From: an uncultured Flavobacteriales bacterium
GTDB lineage: Bacteria > Bacteroidota > Bacteroidia > Flavobacteriales > Schleiferiaceae
DNA length: 32,783 nt
Direction of reading: 5' to 3'
Assembly: GCA_937929815.1 (NCBI GenBank)
Contig: CALFUW010000057.1
Coordinates: 1 to 32,783 of the forward strand
Positions 2,471-32,005 of this stretch are shown piece after piece. A model generated the notes under the pieces. It ran no database searches and was not told the DNA's origin. It saw only the letters and a list, made by a program, of their open reading frames with translations. The first letter of the stretch is position 1; each line of letters begins with the position of its first letter. A program made the translations under genes and the position numbers.

Positions 2471-2656
2471 TTAAGCAGGTTTCTTACCGGCGCAACAACG
2501 CGATGACTGTTCTTTTTCCGAAGAACTGCACCCCTTTTTTTCGGATTTCTCTACTTTACTGGTCTCTTTTTCTTTTCCAGCTTTTTTTTCGGGCTCGGTA
2601 GCCATCGTCATCAGGGGGATAGCAATAATTCCGAGTAACAGACTGATTTTTCTCAT
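2471..2656 (-). CDS. Small secreted Lys/Glu-rich protein with a Cys-containing C-terminus, unknown function
   Basis: 61 aa: MRKISLLLGIIAIPLMTMATEP...KKGCSSSEKEQSSRCCAGKKPA; N-terminal signal-like segment; own terminator and candidate promoter. Confidence 0.65.
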   Translation of the reverse strand: MRKISLLLGIIAIPLMTMATEPEKKAGKEKETSKVEKSEKKGCSSSEKEQSSRCCAGKKPA

Positions 2657-2684
2657 TTTTGTGCTTTAAATATGTTTTGCTAAG

Positions 2685-2692
2685 CAAAATTA
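2685..2692 (-). promoter_or_regulatory. Candidate -7 box (TAATTTTG) for the 61-aa ORF, overlapping the stop codon of the upstream peptidase
   Basis: TAnnTTTG match on the minus strand, 28 nt upstream of the ATG at 2656. Confidence 0.4.
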
Positions 2693-4363
2693 CTCAAAGT
2701 GAACAAGTACTTCCAGAATTTTTTCAGCCCTGAGGATCTGAATAGGTGCTGTATCACCGACATCGTATCTCGACAATGCTTCCATATAATCCCGAATGTT
2801 TTTTATGAGTTGGTCATCAATCCGTATGATGTAATCACCTTTAATAATGCCGGCCTTGTCAGCAGGTTTTCCCTTGCTGACACCCTCCACTTCGAGTCCT
2901 TTGTTGTCGGTGTTGTATCCGGGGATAATTCCAAGGGTTACACTCAGGCGCACAGGCCTGCCTTCTTGTTCGTCGTCGGTTGGAGTAAAAACAGGAGGGC
3001 TGCTGAGATTTCCCAATTCTCGGATTAGTGTCGCATTCAGGGAGATTACATCCCGAATCCCCTCAAAATTGATGTAACCTGGCAAATCCGTCGGTTTGTG
3101 ATAATCAGTATGCAGACCCGTAAAAAAGTGAAGTACAGGGATGTTTTGATTGTAAAAAGAGGTGTGGTCAGAAGGTCCTCTTCCACCCCTCGATAGTTGG
3201 TATTTCAGATTGTAGCACTGATATTTTCTCAACATTTTTTCCCATTCCGGACTTGTGCCGGTACCATTGATCCGAAGTTTGCGATCATCAGCCAGACGAC
3301 CGATCATATCGTGGTTAAACATGGTTACAATATTTTCGACGGGATAAGTAGGATGGGTAATCCAATGCTTGGATCCCAGAAGACCTTGTTCTTCGGCACC
3401 AAAAAAGAGGAACAGGTAGTTAAAGGTATTATTCCCTTGATCAAGTAGATGCCGCGCAAGCATTAATACCCCGGCTACGCCTGAGGCATTGTCGTCGGCC
3501 CCGGGATGAAGCTGAGGTTTGCCCTTGTAGATTGAGTTTTTGTCGCCCGTGCCAAGATGGTCATAATGTGCTCCTATTGCAATCGTGTAAGGAGATCCTA
3601 CGTCCCAAAAAGCTATAATGTTATTGGTGGTAACCTGATTTTCGGAGAGTTTTGTTTCTGTCCGGATGCGCTTAGCTCTCTGAATGCTTTCAGATACATT
3701 CGGATCTGCATACCAAACAGGAATTCCGGCTGGTTCAAGCACTTCAAAATAACGATCTGGTATAGGCAGCCCTCGTGTCTGGGAGGAGGTTAAAATTAAA
3801 GCTCTCGCGTTGTTTTCACTGAGGTATTCGATAAATGAACTAAGTTTAAAATTTTTGAAATCAATCCCTTGAGAATCATACAGATTTTTGATCTCGCTCA
3901 GATTGACCAAGGCTATCTTTCTTCTAACCGAAGAGGGATTTGAAAGGATAGGTTCTTTGTCTTGGAGGATAAACAAGGGGCTGATCACCCTGCCTCGTGC
4001 TTTTCCATTTGAACTGTATCGGGTTGGGTACACATGCTCATCGGGGTAATATGTTTTTCCTCGCACTCTGATCTGAGTGTTTTCGGATATGTGGGCCTGT
4101 AGTTTAATGTCAAATTTCTGAGTGTATGTTCCGCTGTCGCCCATAGGAATCAACCCCATTTCTCTTAAATTCTCAACGATAAACCATGTAGCCAGAGAAT
4201 CACCTTCTGTGCCTGGGTAGCGCCCTTTGAAACGTTCGGATGCCAGTTCATTTACAATGTATTGAATGGACTCAAGAGGTATTTGCTGTGGATCTACACA
4301 ATCTTGTGCCGAAGCACTAAGGAGTAAAAACTGAATTAGAAACAGATATGTTATTTTCTTCAT
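2690..4363 (-). CDS. Secreted M28-family zinc aminopeptidase with C-terminal PDZ domain
   Basis: Signal peptide; AIGAHYDHLG, HPGADDNASGVAGVL, FFGAEEQGLLGS, GRGPSDHTSFYNQNIPVLHFFTG motifs; C-terminal PDZ-like KGKPADKAGIIKGDYIIRIDDQLI. Confidence 0.9.
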   Translation of the reverse strand: MKKITYLFLIQFLLLSASAQDCVDPQQIPLESIQYIVNELASERFKGRYPGTEGDSLATWFIVENLREMGLIPMGDSGTYTQKFDIKLQAHISENTQIRVRGKTYYPDEHVYPTRYSSNGKARGRVISPLFILQDKEPILSNPSSVRRKIALVNLSEIKNLYDSQGIDFKNFKLSSFIEYLSENNARALILTSSQTRGLPIPDRYFEVLEPAGIPVWYADPNVSESIQRAKRIRTETKLSENQVTTNNIIAFWDVGSPYTIAIGAHYDHLGTGDKNSIYKGKPQLHPGADDNASGVAGVLMLARHLLDQGNNTFNYLFLFFGAEEQGLLGSKHWITHPTYPVENIVTMFNHDMIGRLADDRKLRINGTGTSPEWEKMLRKYQCYNLKYQLSRGGRGPSDHTSFYNQNIPVLHFFTGLHTDYHKPTDLPGYINFEGIRDVISLNATLIRELGNLSSPPVFTPTDDEQEGRPVRLSVTLGIIPGYNTDNKGLEVEGVSKGKPADKAGIIKGDYIIRIDDQLIKNIRDYMEALSRYDVGDTAPIQILRAEKILEVLVHFE

Positions 4364-4388
4364 TAAGTGAAATTTTCACGAATATAAT

Positions 4389-5060
4389 ATGATGCAGTCA
4401 AAGTCATCCAAGGTGTATCTTTTTGTACTTCATTTCGAGGGATTATCAGACAAGTGGTGGGTCTTTAAACAGATGGGGCAGTTTTCATGGAAGAGAAAAT
4501 TAATTCAGAAATTCGGGTTTTTCAAAATGATGGGAACAGGATCCGGCAATGGCTTTGGAATAATTCCTGATTTCGGAACATACATTTGGATTGTTACCAC
4601 TGATAATTTGAACGCATTTCTGACGGAAGAGCCCATACCACGATTTTTAATCAGACTCAGGCAAATGAGGATTTTTGAGATGTTTCCGACCAAGGCACAT
4701 GGACTGTGGAATAAAAAGAGGCCTTTTGAAGATATAGACAATCAGGAAAATGGCGAAGATTTTCCTCTTATTTCGGTCATCACAAGGGGCAGCATAAAGC
4801 GCTCGATGTGGTGGAAATTTTGGAAATATGTGCCGGTAGTATCCCGTCAGATTCCTTCTCAATCGCTGTTTTCCATCGGGATGGGAGAGCTCCCTCTGGT
4901 CGAACAGGCGACGTTCAGCATATGGAAAGATGAAAACGAAATGAAGACCTGGGCATACCAAAATGCTTCTCACAGACAAGTGATTGACCTGACAAGAAGA
5001 CTCGGATGGTATGATGAAGAGATGTTTGCCCGATTCAGGTGCAGGGAAATTTATCTTTGA
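4389..5060 (+). CDS. Spheroidene monooxygenase (CrtA)-like protein
   Basis: SLFSIGMGELPLVEQATFSIWKDENEMKTWAYQNASHRQVIDLTRRLGWYDEEMFARFR resembles the conserved C-terminal part of the CrtA family. Confidence 0.7.
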   Translation: MMQSKSSKVYLFVLHFEGLSDKWWVFKQMGQFSWKRKLIQKFGFFKMMGTGSGNGFGIIPDFGTYIWIVTTDNLNAFLTEEPIPRFLIRLRQMRIFEMFPTKAHGLWNKKRPFEDIDNQENGEDFPLISVITRGSIKRSMWWKFWKYVPVVSRQIPSQSLFSIGMGELPLVEQATFSIWKDENEMKTWAYQNASHRQVIDLTRRLGWYDEEMFARFRCREIYL

Positions 5061-6949
5061 TTGTCAACCCAACGGTCAAACCACATTTGAAACATTAACA
5101 AAAACCAAATACGTTGATGATCGATGTTACTATCACCTTGTAAAAAGGATTGAATAGCTCTTTTCACCACCTTCGGATTGAAGATATTCTGGCGTTTTAT
5201 TTTCGTATCATCAAATGATTCTTCAAGTAGCCATTTCAATTCTTTCCTTAGCCATCTGTGTATGGGTATCCCAAAGCCCATTTTTGGTCTTTCCATCAGT
5301 TCTTTTGGTACATATTTGTGAACGATTTTCTTCAAAACAGCCTTTTGAATATTCCCGTTTTTTATTTTCAAATTATCAGGCAATGAGAAGGCAAACTCTA
5401 CCAATCTGTAGTCTAAAAGCGGCTCTCTTCCTTCAAGACTTGCTGACATTGTTGCACGATCTACCTTTGTCAAAATATCTTCTGGTAAATACGTGTAAAA
5501 ATCCGTTAAAAGTACTTCTGAAAGTACCGATCCTTTTGGGAAGTCGGGTAAAAAAACAGAAGAAATTGTGTCATAATTCGATGCTAATGAGAGAAGGCCT
5601 TGTGTCTGTTTCGGGGAGAATACACTTAGTTGATTGAGGAATAGTCTGGATGGCTTTTTATAGGTCAGATATGCAAAGAGTTTTGACGCGTAATCGTACT
5701 TACACACATTTGACTGGTGAGGGATCAATCTGGATAAGCCTGCTCCTGCTGATTTCAGAAAATTCGGTATGGAAAGCACTTTTTGGATTTGCCGGATAGC
5801 TTTCAGATGACGTTGATAACCGGCAAAAAGCTCGTCACCTCCATCTGCTGAAAGGCTTACAGTGACGTGTTTCCTGGCGAGCATACTGACCAGCATCGTG
5901 GGGATTGACGACGAATCGCCAAATGGCTCATCGTAGAAATACGACAGTTTTGGAACGAGCTCCAGGGCATCCTGACTTTTGCAATAAAGAGTGGTATGCT
6001 CGGTACCAATGTGTTGAGCAACCCGCTCAGCATAACCAGCTTCGTTGTAGTCGCCGTCTTCAAATCCTATGGTAAATGTCCGAAGTCTGGCCGAGGATTC
6101 TGATTGAAGCAGGGCACAGACCGCCGTACTGTCATAGCCTCCGCTCAGAAAGATTCCTACCGGCACATCAGAGACCATACGCAGGTGAAATGAATCCTTG
6201 AGCAGGGTTTCTAATGATGTAGTAAGCTCATGCTCATCGGATGTGGAAGGTGTTGTGTTTTTTATTGTCCAATATGATTTTGTTTTATAATTTTTTTCAG
6301 AGATATCATATTCCAGATAATGCGCCGGAAAAAGTTTTTTTATCCCTTTGAAAATAGTGTCTGGTGCGGGGATATATCCATATGAAAAATATTTAAAAAC
6401 CGAAGAGTAATCAATCTCTTGTTTTTCCTTATCCAATGGCAATAATGATTTCAGCTCTGACGCAAACATAATTCCTCGGCCGGACGATATTTTGTAATAG
6501 AGAGGTTTGACGCCCACCCGATCGCGAATAAGGAACAACTTTTTTTTATTTAGATCTAATAGCGATATGGCAAACATTCCATTTAATTTATCCAGAAACG
6601 AAATTCCATATTTTTTATACAGATACAGGATGACTTCTGTATCGCTTTCAGATCTGAATTTTATTCCATCTGATTGAAGTTCCTTTCGAAGATATCTGTA
6701 ATTGTAAATTTCGCCATTAAAGACTAAAAATAAATCCTTTTCGGGTGTGCACATGGGCTGATGGCCTGCACTTGACAAGTCAATTACAGATAATCTTTTA
6801 AAAGCTAAAAATGCTGAGAATGTATCGGAAACGACGTGTTCAATTCCTTCGTCGTCAGGCCCTCTGTGATGCAATAAATCTATTGAATTTTTAATGGATT
6901 CTTTTGTCGTAATTCCCGTAAAATCAATAATCCCTGCAAAACCACACAT
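5051..6949 (-). CDS. asnB: Asparagine synthase (glutamine-hydrolysing)
   Basis: MCGFAGIID N-terminal glutaminase Cys; HHRGPDDEG; FNGEIYNYRYLRKEL; SGGYDSTAVCALL PP-loop; DGGDELFAGYQRH. Confidence 0.93.
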   Translation of the reverse strand: MCGFAGIIDFTGITTKESIKNSIDLLHHRGPDDEGIEHVVSDTFSAFLAFKRLSVIDLSSAGHQPMCTPEKDLFLVFNGEIYNYRYLRKELQSDGIKFRSESDTEVILYLYKKYGISFLDKLNGMFAISLLDLNKKKLFLIRDRVGVKPLYYKISSGRGIMFASELKSLLPLDKEKQEIDYSSVFKYFSYGYIPAPDTIFKGIKKLFPAHYLEYDISEKNYKTKSYWTIKNTTPSTSDEHELTTSLETLLKDSFHLRMVSDVPVGIFLSGGYDSTAVCALLQSESSARLRTFTIGFEDGDYNEAGYAERVAQHIGTEHTTLYCKSQDALELVPKLSYFYDEPFGDSSSIPTMLVSMLARKHVTVSLSADGGDELFAGYQRHLKAIRQIQKVLSIPNFLKSAGAGLSRLIPHQSNVCKYDYASKLFAYLTYKKPSRLFLNQLSVFSPKQTQGLLSLASNYDTISSVFLPDFPKGSVLSEVLLTDFYTYLPEDILTKVDRATMSASLEGREPLLDYRLVEFAFSLPDNLKIKNGNIQKAVLKKIVHKYVPKELMERPKMGFGIPIHRWLRKELKWLLEESFDDTKIKRQNIFNPKVVKRAIQSFLQGDSNIDHQRIWFLLMFQMWFDRWVDNQR

Positions 6950-27785: not shown

Positions 27786-30068
27786 TCAAACGACGGTTTC
27801 CTTTCCCGCGATTGAAATGGTGATGGGCTCACCAGAATGCCGGACAATGTGTGTGGCCTCCTGGGTGGCATTGACCTCCAGGATACGGCCATCGAAAATG
27901 ATTTTAAAGCTCAGGCGTTTCCAATGGCGGGGGAGCAGGGGATCAAAATAAAGTTTTTTGTGGCGCACTCTCATTCCCCCGAAGCCTTCAACCACACTCA
28001 TCCATGTGCCGGCCATGGAAGTGATATGAAGGCCTTCATGGACTTCCTTGTTGTAGTCGTCCAGGTCGAGGCGAGAGGTGCGCAGATAGAGTTCGTATGC
28101 CTTGTCGATTTTGTGGAGTTTCGCGGCCAGTACCACGTGGACACAGGGGCTAAGTGAAGATTCATGCACGGTACGCGGCTCATAGAAGTCGAAATGCCGC
28201 TCGTGCTCTTCGTGTGTGAAGTCATCTTCAAAAAAGTAAAATGCCTGAAGGGTATCCGCCTGCTTTATAAAGACAGAGCGTAGAATTCTGTCCCACGACC
28301 AATGCTGATTGATGGGGCGCTCACTCAATGGCAAGTCAGATGCAAGCCGTTGTTCCTTGTCGAGAAAGCCCTCTTGCTGTAGGTATATCTGGTAGGTTTC
28401 AGAGTAGGGAAAATAGATATTTTGAATAATTTTTTGCCAATTTTTTGGCTCAACTGACAAGTCGAAGCCGGTTTTCTCTAATACAACTTCTAACTCACGT
28501 GGATAAAGTTGCTTGATGAGGTCTACCATTTCGAGGGTATACTGCATACACCATCGGGCGATATAGGAGGTGTAGAAGTTGTTGTTGATATTGTTTTCAT
28601 ATTCATTTGGACCGGTCACGCCTAGCATGACATACTGTTGCTTGTCTTCGCTCCAATTGAAACGCTGCGCCCAGAATCGTCCGATGGCAATCATGACTTC
28701 CAGACCATATTCTGCCACATAACGCAGATCCCCTGTGTATTCAAAGTAACGCTTGATGGCGATGACCATGGCGCCGTTTCGGTGAATTTCTTCAAAGGTT
28801 ATTTCCCATTCATTGTGGCACTCCTCTCCATTGATAGTGACCATTGGATACAGAGCTGCTCCGTTTGTAAATCCAAGCTTTTTAGCGTTTTCGATGGCTT
28901 TAGGCAGATGCCTGTATCGATAGAGCAACAGGTTACGGGCAACTTCAGGGTGGCGTGTGCTTAAGTAAAAGGGAAAACAGTATGCCTCTGTATCCCAATA
29001 GGTTACACCTCCGTATTTTTCACCTGTAAATCCTTTAGGTCCGATGTTGAGCCGGGGATCATCGCCGGTGTAGGTCTGATTGAGCTGAAAGATGTTGAAC
29101 CGAATACCTTGCTGCGCTTCGGGGTCGCCTTCGATGATGATGTCGGATGTTTCCCAGATGCGCGCCCAGGCTTCTGCCTGCTCCTTCAGCAATTGGTCAA
29201 ATCCGATTCGCATCGCTTCGGAAGCCTTCTGATCGGCTTCTTCAGCGATTTTATTTTCGGGATAGTAAAGAGTAGATGTAATGGCAGCATACTTGTAGAG
29301 CGTGTAGGTAATTCCGTCTTCGGCCTTGATTTCAAAACGGTTACCCACGTACTTTTCCCGTTGAATATTCTCGGGATAGAGCGTGATGTGGCGACCGTTT
29401 GCTTCGATCTCGTACCGCATGGCAGCAGCTACGTGGAAGTTGGTCTTTTTAGTCGACGCGACGTTTATAGCTTTTTGGGAAGCTACTGATGCAAATACTT
29501 CCTCCCAGAACTTCTCACCGTAATTGGAATCTTCGTTGTGCACGTCGAAGTCCAGATAGGGAGTATACGTAATGACCGGAGAGAATCCCCTTGGCGTGAT
29601 GGAGTAGCGGATAGCTCCGATTTCATGGCGCTTCATGGACAAAAAGCGGACAACTTCCACTTCGATTCGCTTCTCCTCACCAAAGTGTGCCGTAAATCTG
29701 CGCAGGAGGTAACCTTCTTTCATATTGAGCTCGCGGTAGAATCCTGAACTGCGCACTTTAGCAAGGTCAAGAGGATTGTCGTCGATCAGGAGGTCGATAC
29801 CGATCCAGTTGACCGAATTGATGACTTTAGCAAAATACTCGGGATAGCCGATTTTCCACCAGCCTACGCGTGTTTTATCGGGATAATACACTCCGGCTAT
29901 GTAGCTGCCTTGGAGTGATTTTCCGGAATACTGTTCTTCAAAATTGGCGCGTTGACCCATATGGCCATTTCCAAGGGCAAACAAACTTTCGGAACAGGGG
30001 TGTAGGTTGGGGTCAAAGTCTTTTTCGATGATCTTCCATTCATCGGGTATGATGTACTTTCTGTGCAT
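27786..30068 (-). CDS. Glycoside hydrolase family 65, probable maltose phosphorylase
   Basis: LFALGNGHMGQRANFEEQYSG; YWDTEAYCFPFYL; GVTGPNEYENNINNNFYTSYIARWC; TVHESSLSPCVH. Confidence 0.9.
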   Translation of the reverse strand: MHRKYIIPDEWKIIEKDFDPNLHPCSESLFALGNGHMGQRANFEEQYSGKSLQGSYIAGVYYPDKTRVGWWKIGYPEYFAKVINSVNWIGIDLLIDDNPLDLAKVRSSGFYRELNMKEGYLLRRFTAHFGEEKRIEVEVVRFLSMKRHEIGAIRYSITPRGFSPVITYTPYLDFDVHNEDSNYGEKFWEEVFASVASQKAINVASTKKTNFHVAAAMRYEIEANGRHITLYPENIQREKYVGNRFEIKAEDGITYTLYKYAAITSTLYYPENKIAEEADQKASEAMRIGFDQLLKEQAEAWARIWETSDIIIEGDPEAQQGIRFNIFQLNQTYTGDDPRLNIGPKGFTGEKYGGVTYWDTEAYCFPFYLSTRHPEVARNLLLYRYRHLPKAIENAKKLGFTNGAALYPMVTINGEECHNEWEITFEEIHRNGAMVIAIKRYFEYTGDLRYVAEYGLEVMIAIGRFWAQRFNWSEDKQQYVMLGVTGPNEYENNINNNFYTSYIARWCMQYTLEMVDLIKQLYPRELEVVLEKTGFDLSVEPKNWQKIIQNIYFPYSETYQIYLQQEGFLDKEQRLASDLPLSERPINQHWSWDRILRSVFIKQADTLQAFYFFEDDFTHEEHERHFDFYEPRTVHESSLSPCVHVVLAAKLHKIDKAYELYLRTSRLDLDDYNKEVHEGLHITSMAGTWMSVVEGFGGMRVRHKKLYFDPLLPRHWKRLSFKIIFDGRILEVNATQEATHIVRHSGEPITISIAGKETVV

Positions 30069-30078
30069 AGTGTCATTA

Positions 30079-30747
30079 TTATGAATGCTTCAAAACTTCA
30101 GTAATCACGATAGAGGGTGTAAGAAACTCCAGGGAGCCGGCGTGGAAGTCACCTACATCTTTCGGAAGCATGTATCCAATGCCTACCGTGTGCATGTTTG
30201 CGTTTTTTGCGGCCTGAATGCCGGCGAGTGAATCCTCGAAGACGACACACTGCTCAGGCCGGACTTTCAACTGTGCAGCTCCCAGCAGAAATACCTGAGG
30301 ATCAGGTTTGGATTTAGGGGCTGCATTACCGTCAATCAGCACATCAAAAAGGTGCCGTACACCGAGTTTTTCGACGATCGGGATGGCATTTTTGCTTGCT
30401 GAACCAAGTGCAGTGCGTATGTCGGCTTCCCTGGTTGCCAATAGAAAATCTCGCGCACCAGGCAGCAGATCTCCCGGTGTGATGTCCTGGATGTATTCGA
30501 GATACCACTGATTTTTCTTCTCGGCGAGGCGAATTTTATCTTCCGGTGAGACCGTGATTCCACCCCATTGGAGGATCTTCTCCAGACTTTCGGCCCGGCT
30601 TACGCCTTTTAGTTGTTCGTTTTCTTCTTCTGTAAAGTCAAATCCGAGTTCATTGGCCATTCTCCTCCATGCCTTGTAATGATATCTGGCTGTATCTGTG
30701 ATCACACCATCTAGGTCGAATATAAAGGCCTTAATCTCCTGATTCAT
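30079..30747 (-). CDS. pgmB: Beta-phosphoglucomutase (HAD superfamily)
   Basis: KAFIFDLDGVITDTARYHYKAWRRMANELG; LKGVSRAESLEKIL; ALGSASKNA; VVFEDSLAGIQAAKNANM. Confidence 0.93.
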   Translation of the reverse strand: MNQEIKAFIFDLDGVITDTARYHYKAWRRMANELGFDFTEEENEQLKGVSRAESLEKILQWGGITVSPEDKIRLAEKKNQWYLEYIQDITPGDLLPGARDFLLATREADIRTALGSASKNAIPIVEKLGVRHLFDVLIDGNAAPKSKPDPQVFLLGAAQLKVRPEQCVVFEDSLAGIQAAKNANMHTVGIGYMLPKDVGDFHAGSLEFLTPSIVITEVLKHS

Positions 30748-31136
30748 GCACGACGGGCAGTTTCTTTTTTGATCAGACCTATGATGATGAGCTCGGCTGC
30801 CTGGGTGTTGGTGGCGATGGGGACGTTGTGCTTGTCGCAGGCATCGAGTAGATTCTGAATATCCTGGTGATAACTTTGGCGAACGGATGGGTCGCGCAGA
30901 AAGATGACAAAAGATATTTCACCGTTTTCAATCATGCGGGTAATTTCAATGTATCCTCCGCTTTCCCCTTTGTTTACATGCAGGATATTAAGACCGGGCT
31001 GACTCTCTTCCAGGGCATCGGCTGTGCGACCGGTAGCTACAAGGGATTTCCCCCAGAGCCAGTCCTTGCGGTTTTTCAGAAAATCACAAAGCACAGGCTT
31101 CAGCCTGTCGTGAGCTATTACTGCAATTTTTTTCAT
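30744..31136 (-). CDS. Methylglyoxal-synthase-fold protein (divergent MgsA homologue)
   Basis: IAVIAHDRLKPVL, LVATGRTADAL, HVNKGESGGYIEITRMIENGEISFVIFLRDP, HNVPIATNTQAAELII match the MGS fold; the GPxGGD motif reads GESGGY. Confidence 0.8.
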   Translation of the reverse strand: MKKIAVIAHDRLKPVLCDFLKNRKDWLWGKSLVATGRTADALEESQPGLNILHVNKGESGGYIEITRMIENGEISFVIFLRDPSVRQSYHQDIQNLLDACDKHNVPIATNTQAAELIIIGLIKKETARRA

Positions 31137-32005
31137 ACAGCAGAATTTTCCAGAATATTCAGATAGTGGATGTGATAATGAATGAGCCCTTGAAGGGGTT
31201 TCTGAATGATGTTATTGATTTTCAGGTCAAGAGTGTTTGCAGCTTCGATCAAAATATGCCGAAAGTGGTATGCAACAGACCCTACGAAGTTGATTTCCAA
31301 AGATTTGGCATCCTTGTAACAGAGTACATGCGTTTTTAAAAAAAGTTCGAAACCCTCCCTTACCATTTGCTGAAAAGCCGGAAGGTAAATGTGCTTGTGC
31401 ACAAAAAGGCTGAACCCGGCCAGAAAGACATTGGCATGAGGCTCATTGTACACCTGGCGGAAGATGTCGTCCTTTGTAAGCCGATACGTTTCGTAAAAGT
31501 CCTCGGCGATATCCGAGGGCAGCTGTTTGTAAAGATACATGGCTATGAGCCTCTTACCCAGCCAACTGGCACTTCCTTCATCACCCAGTATGTAGGCCAG
31601 TGCAGGCACTTCTTCGTAGATTGTCTTTCCGTCGAAAAAGCAACTGTTTGATCCGGTACCTATGATGCAGGCTATCTCAGGATTGCCTGTGTATGAGGCA
31701 TAGGCAGCAGCCACCAGGTCATGATCTACATATACCTTGGCATTTGGAAATACCCTCCGGAGACCCGACGCGATGATCTCTTTGTAGTAGGCAGATGAGC
31801 ATCCAGCTCCGTAGAAATAAACCTGGAATACTTGATTTTTATGGGTTTTGATGGTTTCGATTTTCGACAATTCATTGTAAACTAAATCAGCGGAATGAAA
31901 GAATGGATTAAAGCCCATGTGTTTAATTTCCTCAAATACAGATCCATCATCGTTTATCAGTACCGCATCGCATTTTGTGGAGCCGCTTTCTGCAAGGTAG
32001 ATCAT
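31133..32005 (-). CDS. BadF/BadG/BcrA/BcrD ATPase-family (N-acetylglucosamine kinase-like) sugar kinase
   Basis: LAESGSTKCDAVLI; YFYGAGCSS; VYVDHDLVAAAYASYTG; CIIGTGSNSCFFDG; YILGDEGSASWLGKRLI; FVGSVAYHF. Confidence 0.88.
   Translation of the reverse strand: MIYLAESGSTKCDAVLINDDGSVFEEIKHMGFNPFFHSADLVYNELSKIETIKTHKNQVFQVYFYGAGCSSAYYKEIIASGLRRVFPNAKVYVDHDLVAAAYASYTGNPEIACIIGTGSNSCFFDGKTIYEEVPALAYILGDEGSASWLGKRLIAMYLYKQLPSDIAEDFYETYRLTKDDIFRQVYNEPHANVFLAGFSLFVHKHIYLPAFQQMVREGFELFLKTHVLCYKDAKSLEINFVGSVAYHFRHILIEAANTLDLKINNIIQKPLQGLIHYHIHYLNILENSAV

Follow-up and report, generated by a model that had tools for sequence, protein, structure and literature searches.

Methylglyoxal synthase paralogs with tyrosine at the position of the catalytic aspartate form a distinct clade in sugar-phosphate operons of Bacteroidia

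The window analyzed here is a stretch of 32,783 nucleotides from an uncultured Flavobacteriales bacterium of the family Schleiferiaceae (contig CALFUW010000057.1). It contains a tightly packed operon in which genes for a BadF/BadG-type sugar kinase, a member of the methylglyoxal synthase (MGS) family, a beta-phosphoglucomutase and a GH65 family enzyme follow one another (Table 1). The MGS-family protein matches the Pfam MGS domain (PF02142, 1.2e-10). It carries tyrosine where canonical methylglyoxal synthase (MgsA) has its catalytic aspartate, and we therefore refer to it and its relatives as the Y type. An AlphaFold2 model built from 12 members of the clade (pLDDT 89, pTM 0.83) has as its best structural match the solved MGS 1wo8 (TM 0.86, 1.7 Å, E 3.5e-11), followed by the MGS-like domains of carbamoyl phosphate synthetases (TM ~0.67-0.69). 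In the window genome, a fragmented assembly that is ~70% complete, the sole other MGS-domain match lies on a 505-aa frame, which is probably PurH.

Table 1. Coordinates of the operon genes and of the active-site features of the Y-type protein in the window.
Feature	Coordinates	Strand	Remarks and basis
BadF/BadG-type sugar kinase	31133..32005	minus	Upstream of the Y-type MGS gene, 4-base overlap
Y-type MGS paralog gene	30744..31136	minus	ATG start, 130 aa; ORF call, family matches, predicted fold
TGRTA, phosphate-loop equivalent	31020..31034	minus	Equivalent to E. coli TGTTG, 45-49; clade-specific Arg37 and Ala39
GESGGY loop	30951..30968	minus	Equivalent to E. coli GPMGGD, 66-71; alignments
Codon TAC, Tyr62	30951..30953	minus	Position of the catalytic Asp71 in E. 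coli MgsA; alignments
His90-Gln91-Asp92	30861..30869	minus	Clade-specific His adjoining the lost H98; Asp92 is the retained D101 equivalent
Beta-phosphoglucomutase	30079..30747	minus	Downstream of the Y-type MGS gene, 4-base overlap; TIGR01990, 236 bits
GH65 family enzyme (maltose-phosphorylase-like)	27786..30068	minus	Last in the window's cluster; ORF and family matches

In MGS, D71 acts as the base that abstracts the pro-S proton from DHAP, with H19 and H98 in accessory roles, and the phosphate site consists of K23, T45-G49 and S65; G66-P67 sit over C1 and C2, and S65 and P67 line the DHAP site (PMC7843640). The sequence of E. coli K-12 MgsA was obtained from the genome record and aligned with the window protein by MAFFT. 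The resulting register agrees with that of HMMER, which places GESGGY of the window protein over GPLGGD of solved MGS structures with no gap. From AHD to IATN, the window protein and E. coli MgsA align without gaps, except for short ones near window residue 45. The fold motifs that a sequence-only reading of this DNA had listed as kept could all be located in the 130-aa frame (AHD at residues 8-10, ATGRT at 34-38, RDP at 81-83 and IATN at 107-110). Its central claim, that the equivalent of Asp71 is a tyrosine encoded by TAC, is borne out by both registers and by all 32 homologs of its clade (see below). In addition to this replacement of D71 by Tyr62, S65 corresponds to Lys, P67 to Glu, T47 to Arg and G49 to Ala39, while H19, D20, K23, T45, T48, G66, G69, G70, D91 and D101 are kept. 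The same reading had also proposed a one-residue shift between the DP motif and the LL helix, which did not hold: the ungapped alignment rules out an indel, Asp92 aligns with D101, and only the histidine has moved (H98 is replaced by Tyr89, and D99 by His90).

Relatives of the window protein were collected by profile searches of 1360 genomes (mostly Bacteroidia, some counted repeatedly) and by one contig scan. Two well-separated groups emerge against the clade profile: Y-type sequences score 173-220 bits, and canonical MgsA sequences 76-110 bits. In a tree of 32 Y-type and 38 D-type sequences, from which columns 65, 67 and 71 had been removed, the Y type forms one side of a branch that has 100/100 support, is present in all bootstrap trees and requires one state change. 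A long branch of 0.76 changes per column leads to the clade. Position 71 is Tyr in 32/32 Y-type sequences and Asp in 38/38 canonical MgsA sequences. The Y-type MGS is a distinct paralogous clade of single origin in Bacteroidia, apart from canonical MgsA, and the alignments and the tree show that the catalytic base was genuinely lost, long ago and throughout the clade. A search of the open-access literature turned up no account of the clade, although one may nonetheless exist.

The Y type is spread sparsely over several families within the same order and class: in the order, 22 of 348 genomes passed the search threshold, and in the class 8 of 345, counts that include four canonical matches just above the threshold (G115, G236, G340 and G497). 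The search outside Bacteroidota covered plasmid records and viral contigs. None of the viral contigs yielded a Y-type gene, and residue 71 is Asp in all four plasmid-record matches that were read (Ilyobacter, Halocatena, Selenomonas and Parabacteroides), only matches with <60% identity being listed for these records. Between the window and its congener, a sister species, dN/dS of the Y-type gene is ~0.05-0.07 by two methods. The gene is under purifying selection, and these values indicate that its product is a functional protein. The state of the window's assembly would by itself invite the reading that the Asp-to-Tyr change is a sporadic mutation, an assembly error or the mark of a decaying pseudogene. 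However, the tyrosine recurs in homologs of independent genomic origin, among them those of Thermaurantimonas and Schleiferia isolates, and this conservation, together with monophyly and the low dN/dS, rules out chance, error and pseudogene decay, leaving that reading a negligible probability.

In comparison with MgsA (EC 4.2.3.3; PRK05234 and TIGR00160; PDB 1b93, 1egh, 1wo8, 2xw6 and 6f2c), the Y type has the same fold and a similar length, and the two are 31-40% identical in a nearly ungapped alignment. Columns fixed in both groups include H19, K23, T45, G66, G69, G70, D91, D101 and N119 (E. coli numbering), with the D101 equivalent being Asp in nearly all Y-type sequences and Glu in two. 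Columns that vary within the Y-type clade although they are invariant in canonical MgsA include S65, P67, L93, P97, H98, P100, R107 and V111. Four residues with ~100% conservation each in canonical MgsA illustrate this loss: S65 is found in 0/32 Y-type sequences (Lys, Pro, Arg, Gln or Glu take its place), R107 in 1/32, H98 in 11/32 and D20 in 24/32 (Asn in 8/32). Within the phosphate site, K23, T45, G46 and T/S48 are kept, while T47 has become Arg and G49 Ala; in window numbering, the retained residues of the phosphate pocket are Lys13, Thr35, Gly36, Thr/Ser38 and Gly57. At a further set of positions, the clade has fixed a residue of its own (W26, R37, A39, H53, Y62, H90, I118 and I122 in window numbering). 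The new residues include, in E. coli numbering, Arg at 47 (28/32), Ala at 49 (31/32) and His at 62 (30/32) and 99 (29/31). Also unlike MgsA, the Y type has a conserved C-terminal helix extension, I-x-G-x-I-[RK]-x-E. Taken together, these classes of sites show relaxation of the former catalytic residues, retention of much of the phosphate site, and newly conserved residues within or beside the active-site segments.

Genomic context was surveyed by neighbor clustering and family assignment over 20 fetched regions and by a geometry table of 24 non-redundant loci. The common gene order is a divergent NUDIX/NrtR-type regulator, 6-phosphofructokinase (PFK), GAPDH, BadF kinase, Y-type MGS, beta-phosphoglucomutase, GH65, two GH13, in some cases canonical MgsA, and an MFS transporter. 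The gene directly upstream of the Y-type gene encodes the BadF kinase in 14/24 loci and GAPDH in 7/24, beta-phosphoglucomutase is encoded downstream in 14/24, and many neighbor pairs have 4-base overlaps. In one family (f8), the order is PFK, GAPDH, Y-type MGS, sometimes an MgsA-like gene, and a ROK glucokinase-like protein, without beta-phosphoglucomutase and GH65. Nearly all members of the clade are in tight operons with glycolytic or sugar-phosphate genes; the exceptions are L106, with efflux genes upstream, and L034, whose neighbor is not clean. The sequence-only reading had raised the prospect of a conserved GESGGY clade linked to GH65/kinase operons. The clade and an operon link were both recovered, but invariance is confined to GGY, and the operon link reaches further, to PFK, GAPDH, glucokinase-like kinases and a split transketolase. 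The locus survey therefore ties the Y type to sugar-phosphate metabolism generally and not to GH65 alone, the closest association being with PFK/GAPDH and the hexokinase-like slot.

Several loci have features of their own. In L105, an aldehyde dehydrogenase family protein, possibly a non-phosphorylating GAPDH, occupies the usual slot of GAPDH (2598-4226). In L035, from an uncultured Bacteroidetes/Bacteroidales metagenome-assembled genome with a more distant Y-type sequence, the Y-type gene lies between the halves of a split transketolase (4102-6863). The regulator that faces the PFK-GAPDH operon in many loci combines NUDIX and NrtR winged-helix domains (L066:12946-13650 and homologs, cluster 5).

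Canonical MgsA genes share the Y type's kind of glycolysis/maltose operon. In sister genomes without the Y type, canonical MgsA is encoded further downstream in the same operon. In five canonical loci of sister genomes (L086, L087, L089, L092 and L094), mgsA belongs to a maltose/starch glycolysis operon, where it follows GH65-GH13-GH13 and often precedes an MFS transporter, and methylglyoxal production therefore seems to be tied to maltose use in those sister genomes. A second MGS gene is present in 13 of 24 Y-type genomes and went undetected in 11, of which 7 are at least 90% complete. The Y-type paralog thus does not depend on MgsA and does not simply replace it, and the presence of both genes in the 13 genomes rules out mutual exclusion. 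The MgsA-like paralogs of the f8 family (L064:9628-9990, L071:10078-10440, L072:9923-10285, L073:9808-10170 and L081:1959-2324) have intact GGD and HEPD motifs but carry TKST or TKNT in place of TGTT in the phosphate loop and sit on a long branch (0.82), so that both genes of the f8 tandem pair carry unusual active-site changes, different in each.

Replacement of another glycolytic enzyme was also considered. Triosephosphate isomerase is present in 18/18 genomes tested, which rules out that the Y type replaces it. Among 16 nearly complete Y-type genomes, 7 gave no match for phosphoglucose isomerase (PF00342) and 11 gave none for class II aldolase (PF01116), but the absences leave no consistent gap at any one step. 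For class I aldolase (PF00274), there was no match in the Y-type genomes, but none in the controls either.

Judging from its residues, the Y-type protein is very probably not a methylglyoxal synthase. We expect the activity to be absent because the base is lost across the clade, with S65 and P67 lost as well and H98 and D20 relaxed. The rival reading, in which the protein has remained an active methylglyoxal synthase whose catalytic base is displaced, would make the name given by the NCBIfam equivalog model PRK05234 (NF003559) correct. The window protein does score 97.3 bits against this model, above its cut-off of 84. D101, D91, H19, K23 and the TGxT loop are retained, and the gene, in an operon of the same kind, is frequently found where the genome lacks canonical MgsA. 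However, D71 is missing from every member, DHAP-site residues S65 and P67 are gone as well (PMC7843640), and in half of the genomes a separate gene of canonical type persists. PRK05234 scores are 97-107 bits for the Y type (window, L004 and L080) and 147-164 for canonical Bacteroidota controls. Against the TIGR00160 equivalog (cut-off 146.9), the window protein reaches 91.6 bits and the Y type up to 99, well under the cut-off and below the 136.6-158.1 bits of the canonical Bacteroidota controls; given this range of the controls, the cut-off is strict even for canonical Bacteroidota MgsA. We regard a working methylglyoxal synthase as quite improbable. The name that PRK05234 gives to Y-type proteins is probably wrong, with the 84-bit cut-off being a likely source of misannotation. 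Under that name, metabolic models would assign a toxic glycolysis by-pass to bacteria that perhaps lack one.

We think it probable that the Y-type clade has a new, unnamed function on the MGS scaffold, as either a stand-alone sensor of a glycolytic metabolite or an enzyme with new Tyr/His-based sugar-phosphate chemistry. The best explanation in our view, which we hold with about as much belief as doubt, is that these proteins are MGS paralogs that no longer make methylglyoxal and have been repurposed to bind a phosphorylated glycolytic metabolite, most likely as regulators. The old substrate pocket would then bind a triose phosphate, a hexose (bis)phosphate or Pi, and the protein would control glycolytic flux from maltose or starch in response to its ligand. 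The analogy is with carbamoyl phosphate synthetase, in which the MGS-like fold is an allosteric ligand-binding domain (PMC4655335). A sensor or regulator is our first choice, at slightly less than an even prospect, because the fold has such a precedent, because part of the clade shows relaxation at the former catalytic positions, and because the gene accompanies several different enzymes instead of one fixed pathway step. On the other side, with D101, D91, H19 and the TGxT loop kept, some DHAP chemistry is formally possible, an equivalog model accepts the protein, and the conserved new polar residues Arg37, His53, Tyr62 and His90 would suit a new active site equally well.

Those four residues are also the ones through which the Y-type protein could be an enzyme with new sugar-phosphate chemistry (e.g., isomerization, epimerization or phosphate elimination), a reading that we consider rather unlikely, though a serious competitor. 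The lost positions have been replaced by new, nearly invariant polar residues, and the gene is nearly always beside sugar-phosphate enzymes (PFK, GAPDH or aldehyde dehydrogenase, beta-phosphoglucomutase and, in a Bacteroidales locus, split transketolase). Nevertheless, His90 and Asp92 are each replaced by Glu in two members, Arg37 varies in four, the triosephosphate isomerase step is not replaced, and we found no obvious pathway gap that the protein would fill, with a possible exception at aldolase. Another proposal is that the Y-type protein is a non-catalytic subunit that forms mixed hexamers with canonical MgsA and tunes its activity. MgsA is a homohexamer, the Y-type gene of the f8 family is directly followed by the MgsA-like gene (with a 4-base overlap in 3 of 4 measured pairs), and in other genomes MgsA is encoded at the end of the same operon. 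The 11 genomes in which no second MGS was detected rule out such a partnership as a general role and make the proposal very doubtful; it may apply to f8 only, where the MgsA-like neighbor is itself unusual.

The regulatory reading, which we prefer, differs from its closest known counterpart in architecture. The MGS-like domain (PF02142) of the carbamoyl phosphate synthetase large subunit uses the fold for effector binding and not for methylglyoxal production; it is part of a large enzyme and has 19-23% identity, whereas the Y type stands alone and is closest to MgsA. The IMP cyclohydrolase domain of PurH (PF02142), an MGS-family domain with different chemistry, belongs to a separate, distant MGS subfamily. 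We suggest that the Y-type clade offers a clear natural example of an active site rewritten on the MGS scaffold and fixed in operons for glycolysis and starch use, and that it points to an unrecognized control or reaction at the triose- or hexose-phosphate level in Bacteroidia. The cultured Thermaurantimonas and Schleiferia species permit direct testing. Away from the Y-type loci, a Parabacteroides distasonis record has a canonical methylglyoxal synthase gene inside a leucine biosynthesis operon (leuC-leuD-leuA-like-mgsA-leuB; L104:3001-3444).
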